64,000 bases of DNA. It comes from Hydrogenophilus sp. (GTDB taxonomy: Bacteria > Pseudomonadota > Gammaproteobacteria > Burkholderiales > Thiobacillaceae). A program made the position numbers and the translations under genes. Below, piece by piece: positions 49,378-57,336 of the stretch. Below the pieces are notes generated by a model. That model was given only the letters and a program-made list of their open reading frames with translations. It had not been told where the DNA came from and did no database searches. The first letter of the stretch is position 1; each line of letters opens with the position of its first letter. The stretch covers positions 62,001 through 126,000 of the forward strand of contig DYFK01000011.1 of the NCBI GenBank assembly GCA_020725265.1, read 5' to 3'.

Positions 49378-50124
49378 TCAGGCCGCCCGGCAAATCGCCA
49401 AAAACTCATCCGCCTGCAGGGAAGCGCCGCCAATCAAGCCACCATCGATATCCGGCTGCGCGAACAGTTCGGCGGCATTCGCCGCCTTGACGCTACCACC
49501 ATACTGGATGACGAGACCATCGGCGACCACCGGATCAAGCGCGCGCAATTTCCCGCGAATGAATGCATGCACGGCCTGCGCTTGCGCGGGAGTAGCGGTC
49601 TTGCCGGTACCGATCGCCCATACCGGCTCATACGCGACCACGCAATTCGCCAGCGAAGCAACCCCGGCCTTGGCGATCACGGCATCCAACTGGCGACCGA
49701 CCACCTGCTCGGTAACCCCTGTCTCACGCTCTTCCAGGGATTCCCCCACACAGAGAATCGGCACCAGCCCGGCCGCTTGCGCGGCCAGAAACTTGTCCGC
49801 CACCACCTCGTCGCTCTCGCCGTAAAGCGCGCGCCGCTCGGAATGGCCGACAATGACATATTTGCATCCAAAGTCATTCAGCATGGCGGCCGACACTTCG
49901 CCAGTGAACGCACCCTTGCCATGCTGACTCATGTTTTGAGCCCCCCAGGCAATGCCGCCACCGGACAGCTTGGCGCTCACCGACGCCAAATACGGGAATG
50001 GGACGCAGACCGCCATTTCCGCCTTGACGTCACCCGCCCCGGCCAGCAGCGCGGACAGCAAGGCTTCGTTGTCGGCCAGATTGCCGTGCATCTTCCAATT
50101 GCCGGCGACGATTTTGCGGCGCAT
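49378..50124 (-). CDS. tpiA: Triosephosphate isomerase
   Basis: Interconverts dihydroxyacetone phosphate and glyceraldehyde 3-phosphate. The 248-residue TIM barrel has NWKMHG with the catalytic Lys, VIVGHSERR with the electrophilic His, VAYEPVWAIGTGKTAT with the catalytic Glu and flexible loop 6, and QYGGSVKAANA. GAGGGA precedes the ATG. It has its own promoter and leads into secG. Confidence 0.97.
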   Translation of the reverse strand: MRRKIVAGNWKMHGNLADNEALLSALLAGAGDVKAEMAVCVPFPYLASVSAKLSGGGIAWGAQNMSQHGKGAFTGEVSAAMLNDFGCKYVIVGHSERRALYGESDEVVADKFLAAQAAGLVPILCVGESLEERETGVTEQVVGRQLDAVIAKAGVASLANCVVAYEPVWAIGTGKTATPAQAQAVHAFIRGKLRALDPVVADGLVIQYGGSVKAANAAELFAQPDIDGGLIGGASLQADEFLAICRAA

Positions 50125-50215: not shown

Positions 50216-50458
50216 TCACTCTTCAGGTTGCTCCAGATATTTCTGCAGACGGCGTTCGATCATGTGCCGATCAAAACGCCACTCCTCGATCAGGTTGATG
50301 GCCAAGGAGAAGGTCTTGTTGTTGAGATCGTACATGCGGCCAAGTTCGAAGGCCGCCCCCGACTCCAGCGCTTGGCAGAGTTCCCTGAGAATGGGGGAGG
50401 CTTCGCTATCCGGATTGTTGCGGATGTACTTGGCGATGGATTTGACGGCATTGGCCAT
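50216..50458 (-). CDS. 80-residue protein of unknown function, predicted Pho regulon member
   Basis: A small, probably all-helical cytoplasmic protein that I do not recognise. It begins MANAVKSIAKYIRNN, contains ILRELCQALESGAAFELGRMYDL and ends with a charged helix (WRFDRHMIERRLQKYLEQ). No signal, membrane helix or metal motif is seen. The ATG has GAGGAAAAC upstream. It takes the place downstream of pstB where phoU usually lies, but it is far too short and unlike PhoU. A three-repeat Pho box with a spaced -10 lies between pstB and this gene, so it should be induced separately under phosphate starvation. Confidence 0.82.
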   Translation of the reverse strand: MANAVKSIAKYIRNNPDSEASPILRELCQALESGAAFELGRMYDLNNKTFSLAINLIEEWRFDRHMIERRLQKYLEQPEE

Positions 50459-50546
50459 GCTGTTTTCCTCAAGCGTTGCGGAATGGACAAGACTGATGCG
50501 CGAAGCTCGTTCCAGACAGTGAACGAAGCTCCGCGCGCCCTCGCTC

Positions 50547-50591
50547 AGCTTAGCAGCGGGACATTACCGTTTGATGTCAGTTTTATGACGG
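50547..50591 (-). promoter_or_regulatory. Pho box and -10 before the 80-residue gene
   Basis: On the minus strand CCGTCAT-AAAA-CTGACAT-CAAA-CGGTAAT: three 7-base PhoB half-sites at 11-base steps. The first two match the CTGTCATAAAACTGTCAT consensus at 16 of 18 positions. TAAGCT follows 10 bases later as -10, the same spacing as before pstS. Confidence 0.8.
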
Positions 50592-50607: not shown

Positions 50608-51435
50608 TCAGCCGAAGCGGCCGGTGATGTAATCCTCGGTCTGCTGCTTCTTCGGTTTGACGAACAGGGAATCGGTGTTGCCGAATTCGATCAGATCGCC
50701 CATGTACATGAAGGCCGTGTAATCGGATATCCGCGCCGCCTGCTGCATGTTGTGGGTGACGATGACAATGGTGTAGCGGCTCTTCATTTCATCGATCAAT
50801 TCCTCGATCTTGGCGGTCGAGATCGGATCGAGCGCGGAGGCCGGCTCATCCAGCAGCAACACCTCGGGCTCCAACGCGATGGCGCGGGCAATCACCAAGC
50901 GCTGCTGCTGACCGCCGGACAAGCTCATGCCGCTTTCCTGCAAACGGTCCTTCACCTCGTCCCAAAGGGCGGCGCCGCGTAGAGATTTTTCCACGGCTTC
51001 GTCCAGCGTCTTCTTGTCGTTGACGCCCATGATGCGCAGGCCATACGCGACGTTTTCGTAAATCGACTTGGGGAAGGGATTGGGTTTCTGGAACACCATG
51101 CCGACCCGACGGCGCAGCAATGCGACGTTGACATCGCGATCGTAGATGTTCTTGCCATCCAGCAGGATCTTGCCTTCGACCCGGCAGATATCGACCAGAT
51201 CGTTCATGCGATTGAAGCAACGCAACAACGTCGATTTTCCGCAGCCGCTGGGGCCGATGAAAGCGGTCACGCGCTTGTTCGGGATGGCCAGATTGATCGA
51301 CTTGAGCGCCTTCGATTCACCGTAATACAGATCGAGGTTCTCGACCCGGATCGCGATCTCGTCGGTCTGCTCGGTCGGTTTGCGCCCCAGATCCCCGATT
51401 TGCATGGCATGGGTTTTTTCGGTGACTTCACTCAT
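50608..51435 (-). CDS. pstB: Phosphate ABC transporter ATP-binding protein
   Basis: The 275-residue ATPase of the high-affinity phosphate importer. Walker [15 protein letters not shown] loop [15 protein letters not shown], signature LSGGQQQRL, Walker [14 protein letters not shown] and the switch His in [13 protein letters not shown] are intact. The start [11 protein letters not shown] at 51435 has AAGGACG upstream; a 10-codon upstream extension is unlikely. It is 36 bases after pstA. Confidence 0.97.
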
Positions 51436-51471
51436 GTTTCGTCCTTCAATCGATAAATTCGGCAACGGGGA

Positions 51472-53127
51472 TCAGACGCCTTCAAGGCCGCGCATGCGCT
51501 CGCGCAACCGGTTGCGTAGACGGATCGCGAACAGGTTGAGCACGACGATGATGATCACCAGCAGCAACGCGGTGGCGTACACCAACGGACGCGCCGCCTC
51601 GACGTTCGGGCTCTGGAAGCCGACGTCGTAGATGTGGAAGCCGAGGTGCATGAACTTGCGTTCCAGGTGCAGGAAAGGGAAATTGCCATCCAGCGGCAGG
51701 CTCGGCGCCAGCTTCACGACGCCGACCAGCATCAGCGGCGCCACTTCACCGGCGGCGCGCGCCACCGCCAGAATCAGCCCGGTCATCATGGCCGGACTGG
51801 CGATCGGCAGCACGGTGCGCCACAAGGTTTCCGCCTTGGTGGCGCCAAGCGCCAGACTGCCCTCGCGAATGCTGCGCGGCACCCGTGTCAAGCCCTCCTC
51901 GGTCGCCACGATGACCACCGGAAGGGTCAGCAAGGCCAGCGTCAGAGAAGCCCACAGGATGCCGGGACTGCCGAACACCGGAGCCGGGTGCGACTCGGGG
52001 AAGAACAGCTGATCGATATTGCCGCCCAGGAAATAGACGAAGAAACCAAGACCGAACACGCCGTAGACGATCGATGGCACCCCGGCCAGGTTGTTCACCG
52101 AGATACGGATCACCCGGATCAGCGGACCCTGCTTGGCATACTCGCGCATGTACACGGCCGCGATGATGCCGAGTGGGGTCACCATAACCGACATCATGAG
52201 CACCATCATCACGGTACCGAAAATGGCCGGGAAAATACCGCCCTCGGTATTGGCTTCACGCGGGTCGTCAACGATGAACTCGATGAACTTGTGGATGTAG
52301 TAGCCGATCTTCTGGAAGATGTTCATGTCGTTCGGCATCAAGGCATCGGCTACCTTGGCGAACGGAATCTCGACTTCCTGACCATCCATGGTGACGGCGA
52401 CGAAGCTATCCCGCTCGATATCCTGGCGGAGTTGATCCAGCTTCTCCTGAAGCGCGCCAAACTTGCCGTTGAGCACCTCGCGCTCGGCCTCGAATCTGGT
52501 CTTGTCGGCTTCGGTCAGGGTGCCGCGCAGTTCCAGCTTGCGTTCCTTCAGGCGCAGCTTTTCAAGCTGGTAATTGAGGCGACCGATATCCACTTTCTCG
52601 ATACGTACCGCCTGGCTGAAGAGATCATTCGACCGTTCCAAGCGCTTTTTCAGCTCCGCCCAGGCGGCGGGACCATCGGCAACCACGACGCCGGCTTCCT
52701 TGACCACCTTCAGGTGACCGTAGAAATTACCCCACTCGCGGCGCTCGACCGAGATCAGATCCTTGGGATAGGTGAACTCGCCCAACATCGGCGCCGGATA
52801 CCACTTGAAGTCGGTGCCGGTGATGTCACGGTTACCTTGCTTGATCAGATAGCGGTAGGTGAATTTATCGGTCGAGTCGATGTTGTAACCCGATTCGCGC
52901 AAGCGGATCAGGGAAACTTCCTCCTTTTCCCTGACCTCGCCAATCAGCCGGGTCTGGCTGCCGTCCGGCTGGGTGAACATGACCTCGGCGACAGGCTTCG
53001 GCCACCAGTGCACCAACCCCTTGGCGGCGGTCAGCCAGACCACCGCGTACACCATCACCAAGGACAAGGCCACGGCTCCGGCGGTCGTCCAAATCCAGGG
53101 ATCGCCATCCTTGAACCATTTACGCAT
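51472..53127 (-). CDS. pstA: Phosphate ABC transporter permease PstA, long form
   Basis: A 551-residue inner-membrane permease. The C-terminal 290 residues are a normal PstA with six helices and the coupling motif EGSLALGATKAETLW. In front is a long N-terminal region (one helix near 15-35, then periplasmic alpha/beta and a coiled coil around LEKLRLKERKLELRGTL) of the DUF3333 kind found in long PstA proteins of proteobacteria. It pairs with the equally long PstC; the two extra domains probably meet in the periplasm. Confidence 0.93.
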   Translation of the reverse strand: MRKWFKDGDPWIWTTAGAVALSLVMVYAVVWLTAAKGLVHWWPKPVAEVMFTQPDGSQTRLIGEVREKEEVSLIRLRESGYNIDSTDKFTYRYLIKQGNRDITGTDFKWYPAPMLGEFTYPKDLISVERREWGNFYGHLKVVKEAGVVVADGPAAWAELKKRLERSNDLFSQAVRIEKVDIGRLNYQLEKLRLKERKLELRGTLTEADKTRFEAEREVLNGKFGALQEKLDQLRQDIERDSFVAVTMDGQEVEIPFAKVADALMPNDMNIFQKIGYYIHKFIEFIVDDPREANTEGGIFPAIFGTVMMVLMMSVMVTPLGIIAAVYMREYAKQGPLIRVIRISVNNLAGVPSIVYGVFGLGFFVYFLGGNIDQLFFPESHPAPVFGSPGILWASLTLALLTLPVVIVATEEGLTRVPRSIREGSLALGATKAETLWRTVLPIASPAMMTGLILAVARAAGEVAPLMLVGVVKLAPSLPLDGNFPFLHLERKFMHLGFHIYDVGFQSPNVEAARPLVYATALLLVIIIVVLNLFAIRLRNRLRERMRGLEGV

Positions 53128-53139
53128 GATTAGTCTTCC

Positions 53140-55416
53140 TTACAGAGTGCTGTATTTACGGCGCAGGCGGTCCCGGATCAGCTCGGCCACGGTGTTCACC
53201 GCGAAAGTGAAGGCAAACAGCACCAGTGCCGAGAAGAACAACAGGCGATAGTGGGTGGTGCCCACGGCGGCTTCCGGCATTTCGACGCCGATGTTGGCGG
53301 ACAGGGTTCGGAAACCGGTGAAGATGGACAGGTCCATCACCGCGGTATTGCCGGTCGCCATCAGCACGATCATGGTCTCGCCCACCGCGCGGCCCATGCC
53401 GACCATGATGGCCGAGAAGATGCCGGGGCTGGCGGTCAGCAGCACCACATTGAACAGGGTCTGCCAGGGCGTGGCGCCGAGCGCCAGAGAGCCGGTGGTC
53501 AGGTGCTTGGGCACGCTGAACACGGCGTCCTCGGCGATCGAGAAGATGGTCGGGATGACCGCGAAGCCCATGGCGACGCCAACCACCAGCGAGTTGCGCT
53601 GTTCATAGGTCCAGCCCAGCTCGTTGCTCACCCAGTGCGGCATGTCGCCGCCGAAGAAAACCGCCTCGATCGGATGGCCGATCTGGATCGAGAGCCAGAT
53701 CACCACGATGATCACCGGGATCAGCATGGCCGCTTCCCAACCCGCCGGCACCCGGTCGGTGATGTTTTTCGGCAGCAGATGCCAAAGGTAGGCCGTGATC
53801 ACGAAACTGAACGGCAGCAGGAAGATCGCCACCAGGGTACCGGCCAGATTGTTGTCGACGAAAGGCGCCAGCCAGAGACCGGCCAGGAAACCGAGAATCA
53901 CGGTCGGCAGCGCCTCCATGATCTCGATCGACGGTTTCACCACGCCACGCATTTTTGGCGACATGAAGTAGGCCGCGAAAATGGCGCCCAGCACTGCCAG
54001 CGGCACCGCCACCAGCATGGCGTAGAAGGCCGCCTTCAAGGTGCCGAAGGTGAGCGGCGCGACGCTGAACTTGGGCTCGAAATCAGACGTCGCGGCGGAC
54101 GACTGCCAGTTGTATTCCGGCTCCTGATAGCTTTCGTACCAGACCTTCTGCCAGAGCGAGTGGAACGATATCTCGGGGTAGTCGTTCTCCACCCGCGCGG
54201 TCTGGATGCCGCCGTCGGCCGCCTCGACCAGCACCGCGTTGGCGCGCGGCGACAGACCCACCGCGCGAACCGGCTGGTCGCCCGTGTCCCGGGTCAACAC
54301 CAGCTTGCGCGACGTGGCGTAGTACAGGCCCAGATTGCCTTTGTCGTCACCGACCAGGAAGCCCTTGCGGAAATGTTCCGGGGCGATGGCAGTGACCGCG
54401 CCTTGCATTGGCTTGAAATCACGGATGCGGGTGAGCTGATTGTTGTTGTCGTCGTCGCGAACCTGGAACCATTGCGTCAACTCGCCCTTGCTGCTGCCGA
54501 TGATCAGCGAGAAACCGCCGGACAGAATGGTGGCGGCGGTGACCCGCTCGTTTTCCGGCACCAGCGCCACGGTCTGTTTCAGGCTGGGCGCGGACTTGTC
54601 CATGACATCGTAGTGACTGACGAGACGACCACCATGAATGACATAAAGGTCACGCTGCTTCACTTCCAGGATCAACTGGCTGACTTCACCCTCCACCGGC
54701 TCAAGAACCTGATGGCTGGCCTCGGTGGTGACTTCGCCGGTGATCATGTTCTCCCGGCTGGAGAACGCCGCCAGGACCAGACGGCCATCATCGGTCAGAG
54801 CCACCGCGGTGGCTTCGTCGCCTTGATGTTGGATACTCAACTGCTTGAGCGCGCGACCTTCCGGATCAACCACCAGCGGCTCTCCGCCAAGTGGATAGTC
54901 CAAACTCGGCGCGATGGTGCGAATGTCTTTGGCGTGATCTTCCGGATCCACTTCGAAGGTCACCTTGAAGGCTTGCTCAACCACCAGCATGCGTCCATCG
55001 CTAAGACCGTAAGCCACCTTGCGCTGCGATGGATCACCCGCCGCGAAGGTAGTGATGGTCACGCCCTCGGGCAGGGTCACACCGGCCTCGCCACGCGCCT
55101 TGCCATCGCCGAGATTGAAGAAATAAGCCTTGCCCTGCGCAGTGAAGCGCACGCCGATTTCAGCCTGCTCTTCGGTGGTCAGATGCACGGTGCGATCCTG
55201 GAGCGTGCCGATGGCCGGCAGATTTTCCAGCCGGTCCATGGACGCGGGCAAAAAGATCGGCACCACCACGCTGGCCAAGTAGAAGAAGATCAAGCTGATG
55301 GCGATGATCACACTCAACCCGCCGAAGGTCATGACGTGCTTGAACAGCTTGTCCTTGGCCATGCGGCGGCCGGTATACCCGCCCACCTTGATGATGTTCT
55401 CTTCAATCTTTTCCAT
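53140..55416 (-). CDS. pstC: Phosphate ABC transporter permease PstC, long form
   Basis: A 758-residue permease, more than twice the length of E. coli PstC (319). After one helix (about 32-55) comes a periplasmic region of about 390 residues with repeated beta-propeller-like strands (for example DGRMLVVEQAFKVTFEVD, DDGRLVLAAFSS, DKGNLGLYYATSRKLVL), then the membrane domain with SLALGATPWQTLFNV as the coupling helix. Long PstC proteins are known in pseudomonads and betaproteobacteria; the propeller's role is not established. A terminator lies between it and the upstream lipoprotein gene. Confidence 0.93.
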   Translation of the reverse strand: MEKIEENIIKVGGYTGRRMAKDKLFKHVMTFGGLSVIIAISLIFFYLASVVVPIFLPASMDRLENLPAIGTLQDRTVHLTTEEQAEIGVRFTAQGKAYFFNLGDGKARGEAGVTLPEGVTITTFAAGDPSQRKVAYGLSDGRMLVVEQAFKVTFEVDPEDHAKDIRTIAPSLDYPLGGEPLVVDPEGRALKQLSIQHQGDEATAVALTDDGRLVLAAFSSRENMITGEVTTEASHQVLEPVEGEVSQLILEVKQRDLYVIHGGRLVSHYDVMDKSAPSLKQTVALVPENERVTAATILSGGFSLIIGSSKGELTQWFQVRDDDNNNQLTRIRDFKPMQGAVTAIAPEHFRKGFLVGDDKGNLGLYYATSRKLVLTRDTGDQPVRAVGLSPRANAVLVEAADGGIQTARVENDYPEISFHSLWQKVWYESYQEPEYNWQSSAATSDFEPKFSVAPLTFGTLKAAFYAMLVAVPLAVLGAIFAAYFMSPKMRGVVKPSIEIMEALPTVILGFLAGLWLAPFVDNNLAGTLVAIFLLPFSFVITAYLWHLLPKNITDRVPAGWEAAMLIPVIIVVIWLSIQIGHPIEAVFFGGDMPHWVSNELGWTYEQRNSLVVGVAMGFAVIPTIFSIAEDAVFSVPKHLTTGSLALGATPWQTLFNVVLLTASPGIFSAIMVGMGRAVGETMIVLMATGNTAVMDLSIFTGFRTLSANIGVEMPEAAVGTTHYRLLFFSALVLFAFTFAVNTVAELIRDRLRRKYSTL

Positions 55417-55474
55417 TTTTCACCGCGCTGCTCACGCCTGGAACCTCGCCCACTGTCTGGACGCACAAAAAAGA

Positions 55475-55495
55475 GCCGGATCACCGGGATCCGGC
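55475..55495 (-). terminator. Rho-independent terminator inside the pst cluster
   Basis: An 8-bp stem (GCCGGATC) with a 5-base loop, followed on the minus strand by CTCTTTTTTG. It lies 36 bases after the lipoprotein stop and 58 bases before pstC. Confidence 0.82.
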
Positions 55496-55530
55496 CCACA
55501 CGCCGCTCCGGGCGGCGTTACTCGATCGTA

Positions 55531-56157
55531 CTACTTGGCCTTGCGCAGGGCGTTGAATTGCTCGACCAGCGCGACCGGGCGACCAGCCTTGACGGTTTCC
55601 TTGTTCAAGCCGTAGATCACGGTTTCGCCATTGGGACCGGTGCCGATCTCGGTGAAGGTGTAGATCATTTCACCGTGTTCCTTGTAGTCCTTGAAGTCCT
55701 TCCAGTCGCCGAAAACATAGAAGCGGCCGTCCTTGAACACCTCGCCGTAGAACGGTCCGGTCGGCTCATACTTGCCGTCGTAGAGCAGCTCGGCTTTCGA
55801 GGGCTTGGCCAGATCGTCGGCTTCCTTCTTCTGGATGCCGAACACCAGGGTGGCGCCATCCGGTCCTTCACCCACGCGGGTACGGGTGAAGATGAGCTCA
55901 TTGGTGTGCATGAACTCGAGGTAGTTGGCCTTGTCGGCGATCGGGTAGATGCGGCCATTCTCGTGGAACACCACGAAATAGTGCTCGGTCGGCTGCGCGA
56001 CCGGAGCGGCGGCGGGAGTCGCGGCGGCGGGAGCGGGAGCGGCCGCGGCCGGCTTCGCCTGAACAGCCGGCTGGCTGGTGGCGCAGGCGCTCAGTGTGCC
56101 CATGGTCAGCAGTGCGACCAAGGAATACGACAGGAAACGCGGCTGAGTGGTCAGCAT
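55531..56157 (-). CDS. Lipoprotein with duplicated domain, between pstS and pstC
   Basis: A 208-residue lipoprotein of unknown function. Signal peptide with lipobox LSAC (Cys25), an Ala/Pro linker (29-57), then two copies of a domain of about 53 residues: the first at 60-113 (FHENGRIYPIADKANYLEF and GEGPDGATLVFGI) and the second at 137-189 (FKDGRFYVFGDWKDFKDY and GTGPNGETVIYGL). Both halves share G-R-x-Y, a G-x-GP-(D/N)G-x-T turn and a final (F/Y)G. It follows pstS by 79 bases and so should be induced by phosphate starvation. A periplasmic or outer-membrane helper for phosphate capture is plausible but unproven. Confidence 0.85.
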   Translation of the reverse strand: MLTTQPRFLSYSLVALLTMGTLSACATSQPAVQAKPAAAAPAPAAATPAAAPVAQPTEHYFVVFHENGRIYPIADKANYLEFMHTNELIFTRTRVGEGPDGATLVFGIQKKEADDLAKPSKAELLYDGKYEPTGPFYGEVFKDGRFYVFGDWKDFKDYKEHGEMIYTFTEIGTGPNGETVIYGLNKETVKAGRPVALVEQFNALRKAK

Positions 56158-56184
56158 GATAGGTTCTCCATCTGTGGATCAGAA

Positions 56185-56212
56185 ACCGGGCCGCGAACAA
56201 GCCGGGCCCGGT
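56185..56212 (-). other. Hairpin between pstS and the lipoprotein gene
   Basis: An 8-bp stem (ACCGGGCC) with a 12-base loop and no T-run. Such structures after binding-protein genes often protect the 3' end and raise the level of the first message. Confidence 0.5.
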
Positions 56213-56236
56213 GGTCACGCGGGTGGATCGCGTCGA

Positions 56237-57223
56237 TCAGTTGATACCCAGGTCGGCCAAGGCCTTGGCGGCCAGGCTGGCCGGCAGCGGCACGAAACCA
56301 TCCTTGATCACGACTTCCTGCCCCTGTTTGGACAGAACCAGTTTGACGAACTCGCGCTCCAGCGGCGGCAGCGGCTGGTTGGGGCGCTTGTTGACGTAGA
56401 AGTACAGCACGCGGGACAGCGGGTAGGTGCCGTCGATGGCATGCACGGCATCGGCTTCGACGAACGGCTGACCATCCTTGGCCGCCAACGGCAGGGCGCG
56501 CACACCGGAGGTCTTGTAGCCGATGCCGGAGTAACCGATGGCGCCGATCTGGCCGGTCACGCTCTGCACCACCGAGGCGGAACCCGGCTGTTCGGCCACG
56601 TTGCGCTTGAAGTCACCCTTGCACAGGGCTTTTTCCTTGTAATAGCCGTAGGTGCCGGACACCGAATTGCGGCCATACAGAGCGATGTTGCGGTTGGCCC
56701 ATTCGCCGGTCATGCCAACCTGACCCCAACGGGTGATGTCTTCCTTGCCGCCGCACTTGCGCGTGGCGGAGAAGATGGCATCAACCTGAGGAATGGAAAG
56801 GCCGGGAATCGGGTTGTCCTTGTTGACGTACACGGCCAGGGCATCGATGGCGGCCGGCACCGGAGTCGGCTTGTAACCGAATTTCTTCTCGAAGGCTTCG
56901 ATTTCCTTGGCGTTCATCAGTCGGCTCATGGGGCCGAAGTTGGCGGCCCCTTCGATCAGGGCCGGCGGCGCGGTGGAGGAACCGGCGCCCTGGATCTGGA
57001 TGTTGACGTTGGGGTAGTTGCGCTTGTAGGTCTCGGCCCACAGGGTCATCAGGTTGTTCAGGGTGTCGGAACCGACGCTGGTGAAGTTGCCGGACACGCC
57101 GCTGGCCTTGGTGTAGGAGGGCAATGCCGGGTCAACCTTGACGGCCTGGGCGAACGCGCCCTGAGCAACGAAAGCGGTACCGGCGACAACGCCGAGCGCC
57201 ATGGCGATTTTCTTGATAAACAT
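56237..57223 (-). CDS. pstS: Periplasmic phosphate-binding protein
   Basis: The 328-residue binding protein that delivers phosphate to PstCAB. Signal peptide 1-25 (ending AFA), then phosphate-site segments [51 protein letters not shown] and [10 protein letters not shown]. It belongs to the PstS branch with SDT and SGTYG sites rather than the E. coli form. AGGAG lies before the ATG. It is the first gene after a strong Pho box. Confidence 0.95.
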
Positions 57224-57291: not shown

Positions 57292-57336
57292 ATCCTATAC
57301 AGGGCGGATTACAGAATCATGACAGCCAGACTACAA
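57292..57336 (-). promoter_or_regulatory. Pho box and -10 before pstS
   Basis: On the minus strand TTGTAGT-CTGG-CTGTCAT-GATT-CTGTAAT: three PhoB half-sites at 11-base steps, the last two near consensus. TAGGAT follows after 10 bases as -10 (57292-57297). The outermost half-site lies within two bases of the glmM stop codon. Confidence 0.88.

Follow-up and report, generated by a model that had tools for sequence, protein, structure and literature searches.

The pst locus and the place of phoU

In pstSCAB-phoU operons phoU has a known place, as set out in passages of PMC4415409. In the DNA of Hydrogenophilus sp. analysed here (the window, i.e. the whole stretch of 64 kb), the gene that follows pstB codes for a protein of 80 residues, labelled X below. 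What is this protein, is it under Pho control of its own, and does it act on phosphate uptake or on something else? The genes on the minus strand run in the order folP, glmM, pstS, pstC, pstA, pstB, X, tpiA, then secG and a nuoA-like gene. The last two labels are presumptive, being assigned from the sequence alone. The features discussed are as follows:

57308..57336, minus strand: Pho box of pstS, the reference promoter (sequence and matrix)
56237..57223, minus strand: pstS family gene (TIGR02136; family model)
53140..55416, minus strand: pstC, long type, 758 aa (best NCBIfam model PstC, just below its cut-off)
51472..53127, minus strand: pstA, long type, 551 aa (family model)
50608..51465, minus strand: pstB (TIGR00972; family model)
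50563..50591, minus strand: predicted Pho box of X (sequence), half-sites CCGTCAT, CTGACAT and CGGTAAT separated by 4 bases each, in 11-base steps
50547..50552, minus strand: TAAGCT, a -10-like element of X, 10 bases 3' of the Pho box, 3/6 to TATAAT
50466..50470, minus strand: GAGGA, likely ribosome-binding site of X, 7 bases 5' of the ATG (read from the sequence)
50216..50458, minus strand: X, ATG start, 80 aa (80 codons), with pstB upstream and tpiA downstream
49378..50124, minus strand: tpiA, the next gene downstream of X, a host gene outside the system (family model)

The original prediction had X in the usual position of phoU. As far as position goes this holds, and no phoU was found after pstB in the window. 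A replacement of PhoU by X is unsupported and was rejected, because phoU is present elsewhere in the genome (on contig C12, about 5 kb from phoB and phoR, with a second PhoU-family gene on C10) and because X has no likeness to PhoU: the two differ in length, X gave no match to PF01895 or TIGR02135, and profile comparison of X with the two host PhoU proteins returned a probability of 0.1%.

Relatives were compared in a family sample of 36 loci, one per contig because most of L002–L026 repeat contigs of L031–L053; a partial locus (L056) and a split gene of one genome (G017) were left out of the count, and the relatives are not independent counts. The long-type PstC/PstA pair of the window is shared with L039, L043 and L068 (75–86% identity). 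Most relatives carry a canonical pst type (323 and 280 aa) between glmM and tpiA, with a PstB about 60–66% identical to that of the window, and X is present with either type. The pst genes (50608–57223 in the window) look as if they had been exchanged in place while X stayed.

X is a conserved protein, predicted to be all-helical

The ratio dN/dS of X was 0.03–0.16 in 8 of 9 pairs, the ninth being saturated; on this basis X is a real protein under selection. Four helices are predicted (residues 2–14, 20–33, 39–44 and 47–75), and the AlphaFold2 model is confident (mean pLDDT 90) and all-helical, with the last helix continuous. Among 82 aligned sequences W60 is invariant, K6, L27, L31, F50 and R61 are conserved in at least 90%, and D63 and Y43 are also common. 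Residues 38–57 fit the hydrophobic spacing of a helix-turn-helix, so that X may bind DNA; against this stand the unbroken last helix of the model and the acidic residues found at positions 38–57 in distant copies.

Sequence searches gave no significant match of X in Pfam, NCBIfam, PHROG or PDB; those against PHROGs and PDB yielded chance-level matches alone (e.g. cyclin A2 at E 0.06). A Pfam scan of the 82 sequences at E 0.01 produced weak matches to four families, without YtfK, DUF1127 or IraP among them; Pfam has models of all three. Structure searches with the model returned nothing above the level of common helical arrangements, an absence which proves nothing. A quick tree of the 82 short sequences has many weak branches, with 13 changes of the Pho-linked label. 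The literature (open papers, by titles and abstract openings, with the best part of the matches for some searches) contained no report on the family, and the passages of PMC12604563 searched contain nothing on small proteins. X is an undescribed family, for which no Pfam or NCBIfam model was found, among the small proteins of the phosphate-starvation response.

A candidate PhoB promoter upstream of X

The PHO box is described in part of PMC4415409 as two 11-base direct repeats. The 149-base gap between pstB and X holds, as originally reported, three half-sites at exact 11-base steps, followed by ten bases and then the TAAGCT element, which is in place albeit weak. Counted against CTGTCAT, the three half-sites match at 17 of 21 positions, a count that recurs in the window at the pstS promoter alone. 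Among 20 Markov copies of the window none had a site of at least 16/21, and sites of at least 15/21 numbered 0.4 per copy. The geometry of the pstS promoter is similar, in line with the earlier observation: its three half-sites match at 4, 7 and 6 of 7 positions and are followed by ten bases and TAGGAT.

A site matrix was trained on pstS promoters alone (25 sites kept from 32 loci of the same genomes, none from X). Its starting consensus was our own assumption. With this matrix the 64 kb window contains four matches of at least 11 on both strands taken together, all of them in the promoters of pstS (25.5 and 12.2) and X (16.3 and 14.6). Scanning with the sigma-70 consensus did not list the X promoter. 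Its weak -10 element and its absence from that scan would fit an activator-dependent promoter, without proving one. The host genome encodes PhoB (TIGR02154) and PhoR (TIGR02966), both over cut-off.

Conservation of the arrangement within the family

In 35 of the 36 family loci (L066 being the exception) pstB is the first identified gene met within 1 kb on the upstream side of X or of a kinase-X pair; the widest gap measures 584 bases, and small unidentified ORFs may lie inside the gaps. A forward Pho site of at least 11 occurs in this upstream gap in 24/36 loci, and a reverse one in 0/36. The 24 divide into 13 of the 21 loci without the kinase and 11 of the 15 with it; of the 12 loci without a site of at least 11, four are kinase-X loci (L047, L048, L050 and L065). 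Upstream regions of other genes reached 11.1 in about 5% of 798 controls, or in 6.8% of 355 controls when intergenic regions alone were taken; some of these controls belong to genes neighbouring X. A set of 141 upstream regions of house-keeping genes, which includes duplicates, has six that reach 11.1, all of them of the nuoA-like gene of three loci, each counted twice. Given the specificity in the window and the 24 forward against 0 reverse sites in the family, the view of the Pho site of X as a meaningless chance occurrence was rejected. The recurrence of the site in relatives makes Pho control of X, separate from that of the other pst genes as first proposed, likely at the level of sequence. 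Pho-like sites of 18.9, 15.5 and 11.3 also precede the nuoA-like gene in L070, L069 and L061, respectively.

The kinase referred to is a PRK14725-type pyruvate kinase, encoded between pstB and X in 15/36 family loci (L034, L035, L038–L040, L043, L045, L047–L053 and L065; incomplete in L049); its stop codon lies 9–13 bases 5' of X where this was read, and in 11 of these 15 loci it is the kinase gene that the Pho site precedes. Remnants of the kinase gene are seen in L031, L044 and L046. Downstream of X the family has either tpiA or, on the opposite strand, glycosyltransferase and metallophosphoesterase genes resembling agt and plcP. These two neighbour names are provisional, given by Pfam/NCBIfam resemblance. 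The order glmM-pst-X-tpiA is common in the family.

Gene and Pho site go together

The Pho site and the X gene go together: they are displaced jointly in one genome and missing jointly in one genus. In the former (G029), X lies on a contig other than that of pstB-tpiA and is preceded by two overlapping site matches, each of 17.4 (L066); from pstC through to the nuoA-like gene no site of at least 12 occurs. In the latter (g6), three genomes have pstB followed by tpiA, with X missing; two of them (L187 and L188) have sites solely before pstS, and the third (L191), which begins after pstS, has none. Since this genus lives without X, X is not essential to the Pho response. X is likewise missing from two further genomes that have pstB (G033 and G025).

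Genome G031 (98% complete; locus L037) yielded neither a PhoR at 1e-50 nor a PhoB over cut-off; it keeps pstSCAB and X after pstB, X lacking a site (2.9) and pstS having a middling one (15.0), and because of the latter the loss of PhoB is uncertain. In L069 PhoB is present over cut-off, yet no site precedes X, which starts about 100 bases after pstB.

Distribution outside the family

A 40-row profile found X in 69 of 399 genomes of the host order, 9 in its own family and 60 in fifteen other families; over 369 genomes spread across the class it matched two, both of the host order. An 82-row profile matched 2/321 genomes in the class and 4/249 in the phylum, again all of the host order. No homologue outside this order was thus found by genome profile searches of the class and phylum samples. 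Plasmid searches returned two Comamonadaceae plasmids, which added nothing further.

Of 73 distant matches, 65 were examined, on 64 loci, and the other eight were left out; some gene calls at these loci come from a codon-usage script, which misses some genes. Near X there are pst genes in 8/64 loci, so that homologues by pst genes, the absence of which would have spoken against the original prediction, were found in the host's family and in two others: in five loci of f15 pstS and pstC flank X, all on one strand (L057 and L107–L110; in L107 with two further genes), and three loci of f23 have it beside plcP and a pst operon. A plcP-like gene is near X in 10/64 loci, three of which are those of f23, and a PRK14725-type pyruvate kinase adjoins X in one locus (L130) of another family; in all, 16/64 loci have pst, plcP or the kinase nearby. 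Eleven further loci have a forward site of at least 14 (five in f28, four in f50, one in f49 and one in f34). The remaining 37/64 have neither such neighbours nor such a site.

Over the 65 distant copies, forward sites do not clearly exceed reverse ones (16 versus 11 at 11.1 and 7 versus 8 at 16; Wilcoxon 0.04). Several of the reverse sites face a divergent neighbour, which is plcP in the case of f23 and, in f35, a gene of GGDEF-EAL type; counts of GGDEF-EAL neighbours are uninformative, this domain being common. In f51 and f30 the homologues lack both a forward site and a neighbouring pst, plcP or kinase gene. The link of X to Pho is firm in its own family, fair in f15 (11/14 loci), f23 (3/5), f28 (5/10) and f50 (4/5), and unproven in the remaining families.

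Likeness to known small proteins

Passages of PMC8600398 describe YtfK, an activator of SpoT in E. coli, as a small protein whose gene is preceded by PhoB sites, and which is PhoB-induced in phosphate starvation and binds a regulatory enzyme. X resembles it in being small and in having a PhoB site before its gene (predicted in the case of X), but the ytfK gene has two Pho boxes and further promoters, and X has no sequence match to YtfK. The DUF1127 proteins (SDPs of Agrobacterium and YjiS of E. coli), which according to part of PMC12501420 tune phosphate uptake by binding PhoR, are likewise small; they differ from X in often having fewer than 50 residues, no DUF1127 match occurs in the 82 sequences, and X is kept in a genome in which no PhoR was found. 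IraP is small and helical. Excerpts of PMC10957080 state that it acts in phosphate starvation by sequestering the adaptor RssB, and that ppGpp induces it at its promoter. It differs from X in this mode of induction, and the 82 sequences contain no match to it. Lipid-remodelling clusters in which plcP stands with glycosyltransferase genes, under a Pho box, are described in sections of PMC4796936; X recurs beside genes resembling those of plcP-agt clusters while itself resembling no enzyme of that pathway.

Possible roles of X

The reading we prefer, to which we give about equal measures of belief and doubt, is that X represents a family, so far undescribed and confined in our searches to the host order, of small proteins predicted to be all-helical, that in the host's family it most likely belongs to the Pho regulon, and that it acts as a PhoB-induced adaptor. 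From established PhoB biology we infer that, upon phosphate exhaustion, phosphorylated PhoB would bind the half-sites at 50563–50591 and switch X on apart from the pst operon. The protein might then bind another protein via conserved residues on one face of the long last helix (W60, R61, D63 and their neighbours), as a small starvation-induced adaptor that is neither a transporter part nor an enzyme. By analogy, and conjecturally, its likeliest targets would be proteins of core physiology outside the Pst/PhoR pair; the recurrence of X beside pst, plcP-like and pyruvate-kinase genes would follow from targets of this kind. The target is placed outside Pst/PhoR, with modest confidence, because X is kept where no PhoR was found and has lipid-remodelling and carbon genes as neighbours at other loci.

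X could alternatively regulate phosphate sensing or uptake by feedback; it would then bind PhoR, PhoU or PstB and set the stop of uptake. The Pho site, the place after pstB (and between pstS and pstC in another family) and the precedent of small DUF1127 proteins binding PhoR (as described in part of PMC12501420) all argue for it. However, X stays after pstB of different types, persists in G031, where neither PhoR nor PhoB was found, and has many distant copies away from pst. Its identity also tracks that of tpiA (rho 0.62) and glmM (0.67) more than that of PstB (0.38), which is supporting and not decisive, since secG correlates still worse (0.16). A role of this type is possible but doubtful, and the original suggestion of a small regulator of PstB or PhoR loses ground accordingly: X outlives the exchange of pst genes and, in other families, often lies away from them.

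It is unlikely that X is instead the partner of a phosphate-saving enzyme, either the PRK14725-type pyruvate kinase or the plcP-glycosyltransferase lipid-remodelling set, even though the kinase gene separates pstB from X in 15/36 family loci and adjoins X in L130, and plcP-like genes are near X in 10/64 distant loci. X persists at loci with no kinase gene or just a remnant of it (L031, L044 and L046), and also at loci that have no plcP nearby, the window among them; moreover, among the 399 genomes of the order, X is present in 69, the kinase in 50 and both in 17. On account of this overlap the kinase was rejected as the sole partner of X.

Were X an ordinary house-keeping protein, its adjacency to pst would be inherited and the Pho site would be minor or would merely separate X from the pst operon. 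The f51 and f30 homologues without Pho links (in f51, for instance, beside an obgE-like gene) and the common order glmM-pst-X-tpiA are consistent with such a role; the other Pho-linked arrangements of X in other families, the Pho site it has in G029 though away from pst, its presence in just 69/399 genomes of the order and its absence from genus g6 make it quite improbable.

Very unlikely, too, is that X is a functional (not a descended) betaproteobacterial counterpart of YtfK, which would couple starvation to the stringent response via SpoT or ObgE; the lead, a thin one, comes by analogy from the same kind of control and size as YtfK and from an obgE-like neighbour in two f51 loci, ObgE being a proposed partner of SpoT in E. 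coli (passages of PMC8600398).

Annotation easily overlooks small proteins induced by stress, and the examples of YtfK and DUF1127 show that such proteins steer the phosphate response. The presence of X could mark phosphate-starvation loci in environmental genomes.

Other features of distant homologues

Several features of the distant loci may be added. In L107, L109 and L110 a tiny gene (74–75 aa) lies between pstS and X and shares its last few bases with the start of X. In L125 and L132 (f51) the X homologue is 107 bases downstream of an obgE-like GTPase gene. Homologues in f28 and f51 possess a long tail after the 80-residue core, rich in alanine, proline and lysine or other charged residues (tailed homologues: L113, L114, L118, L122, L125, L132, L133, L138, L155, L157 and L162). 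Possible phosphate-starvation genes are found near X homologues in three sets of loci: endonuclease I in L113, L114, L118, L122 and L138, a phytase-like esterase in L148, L149 and L152, and phosphoketolase with an acetate-kinase family gene in L141, L146 and L151.
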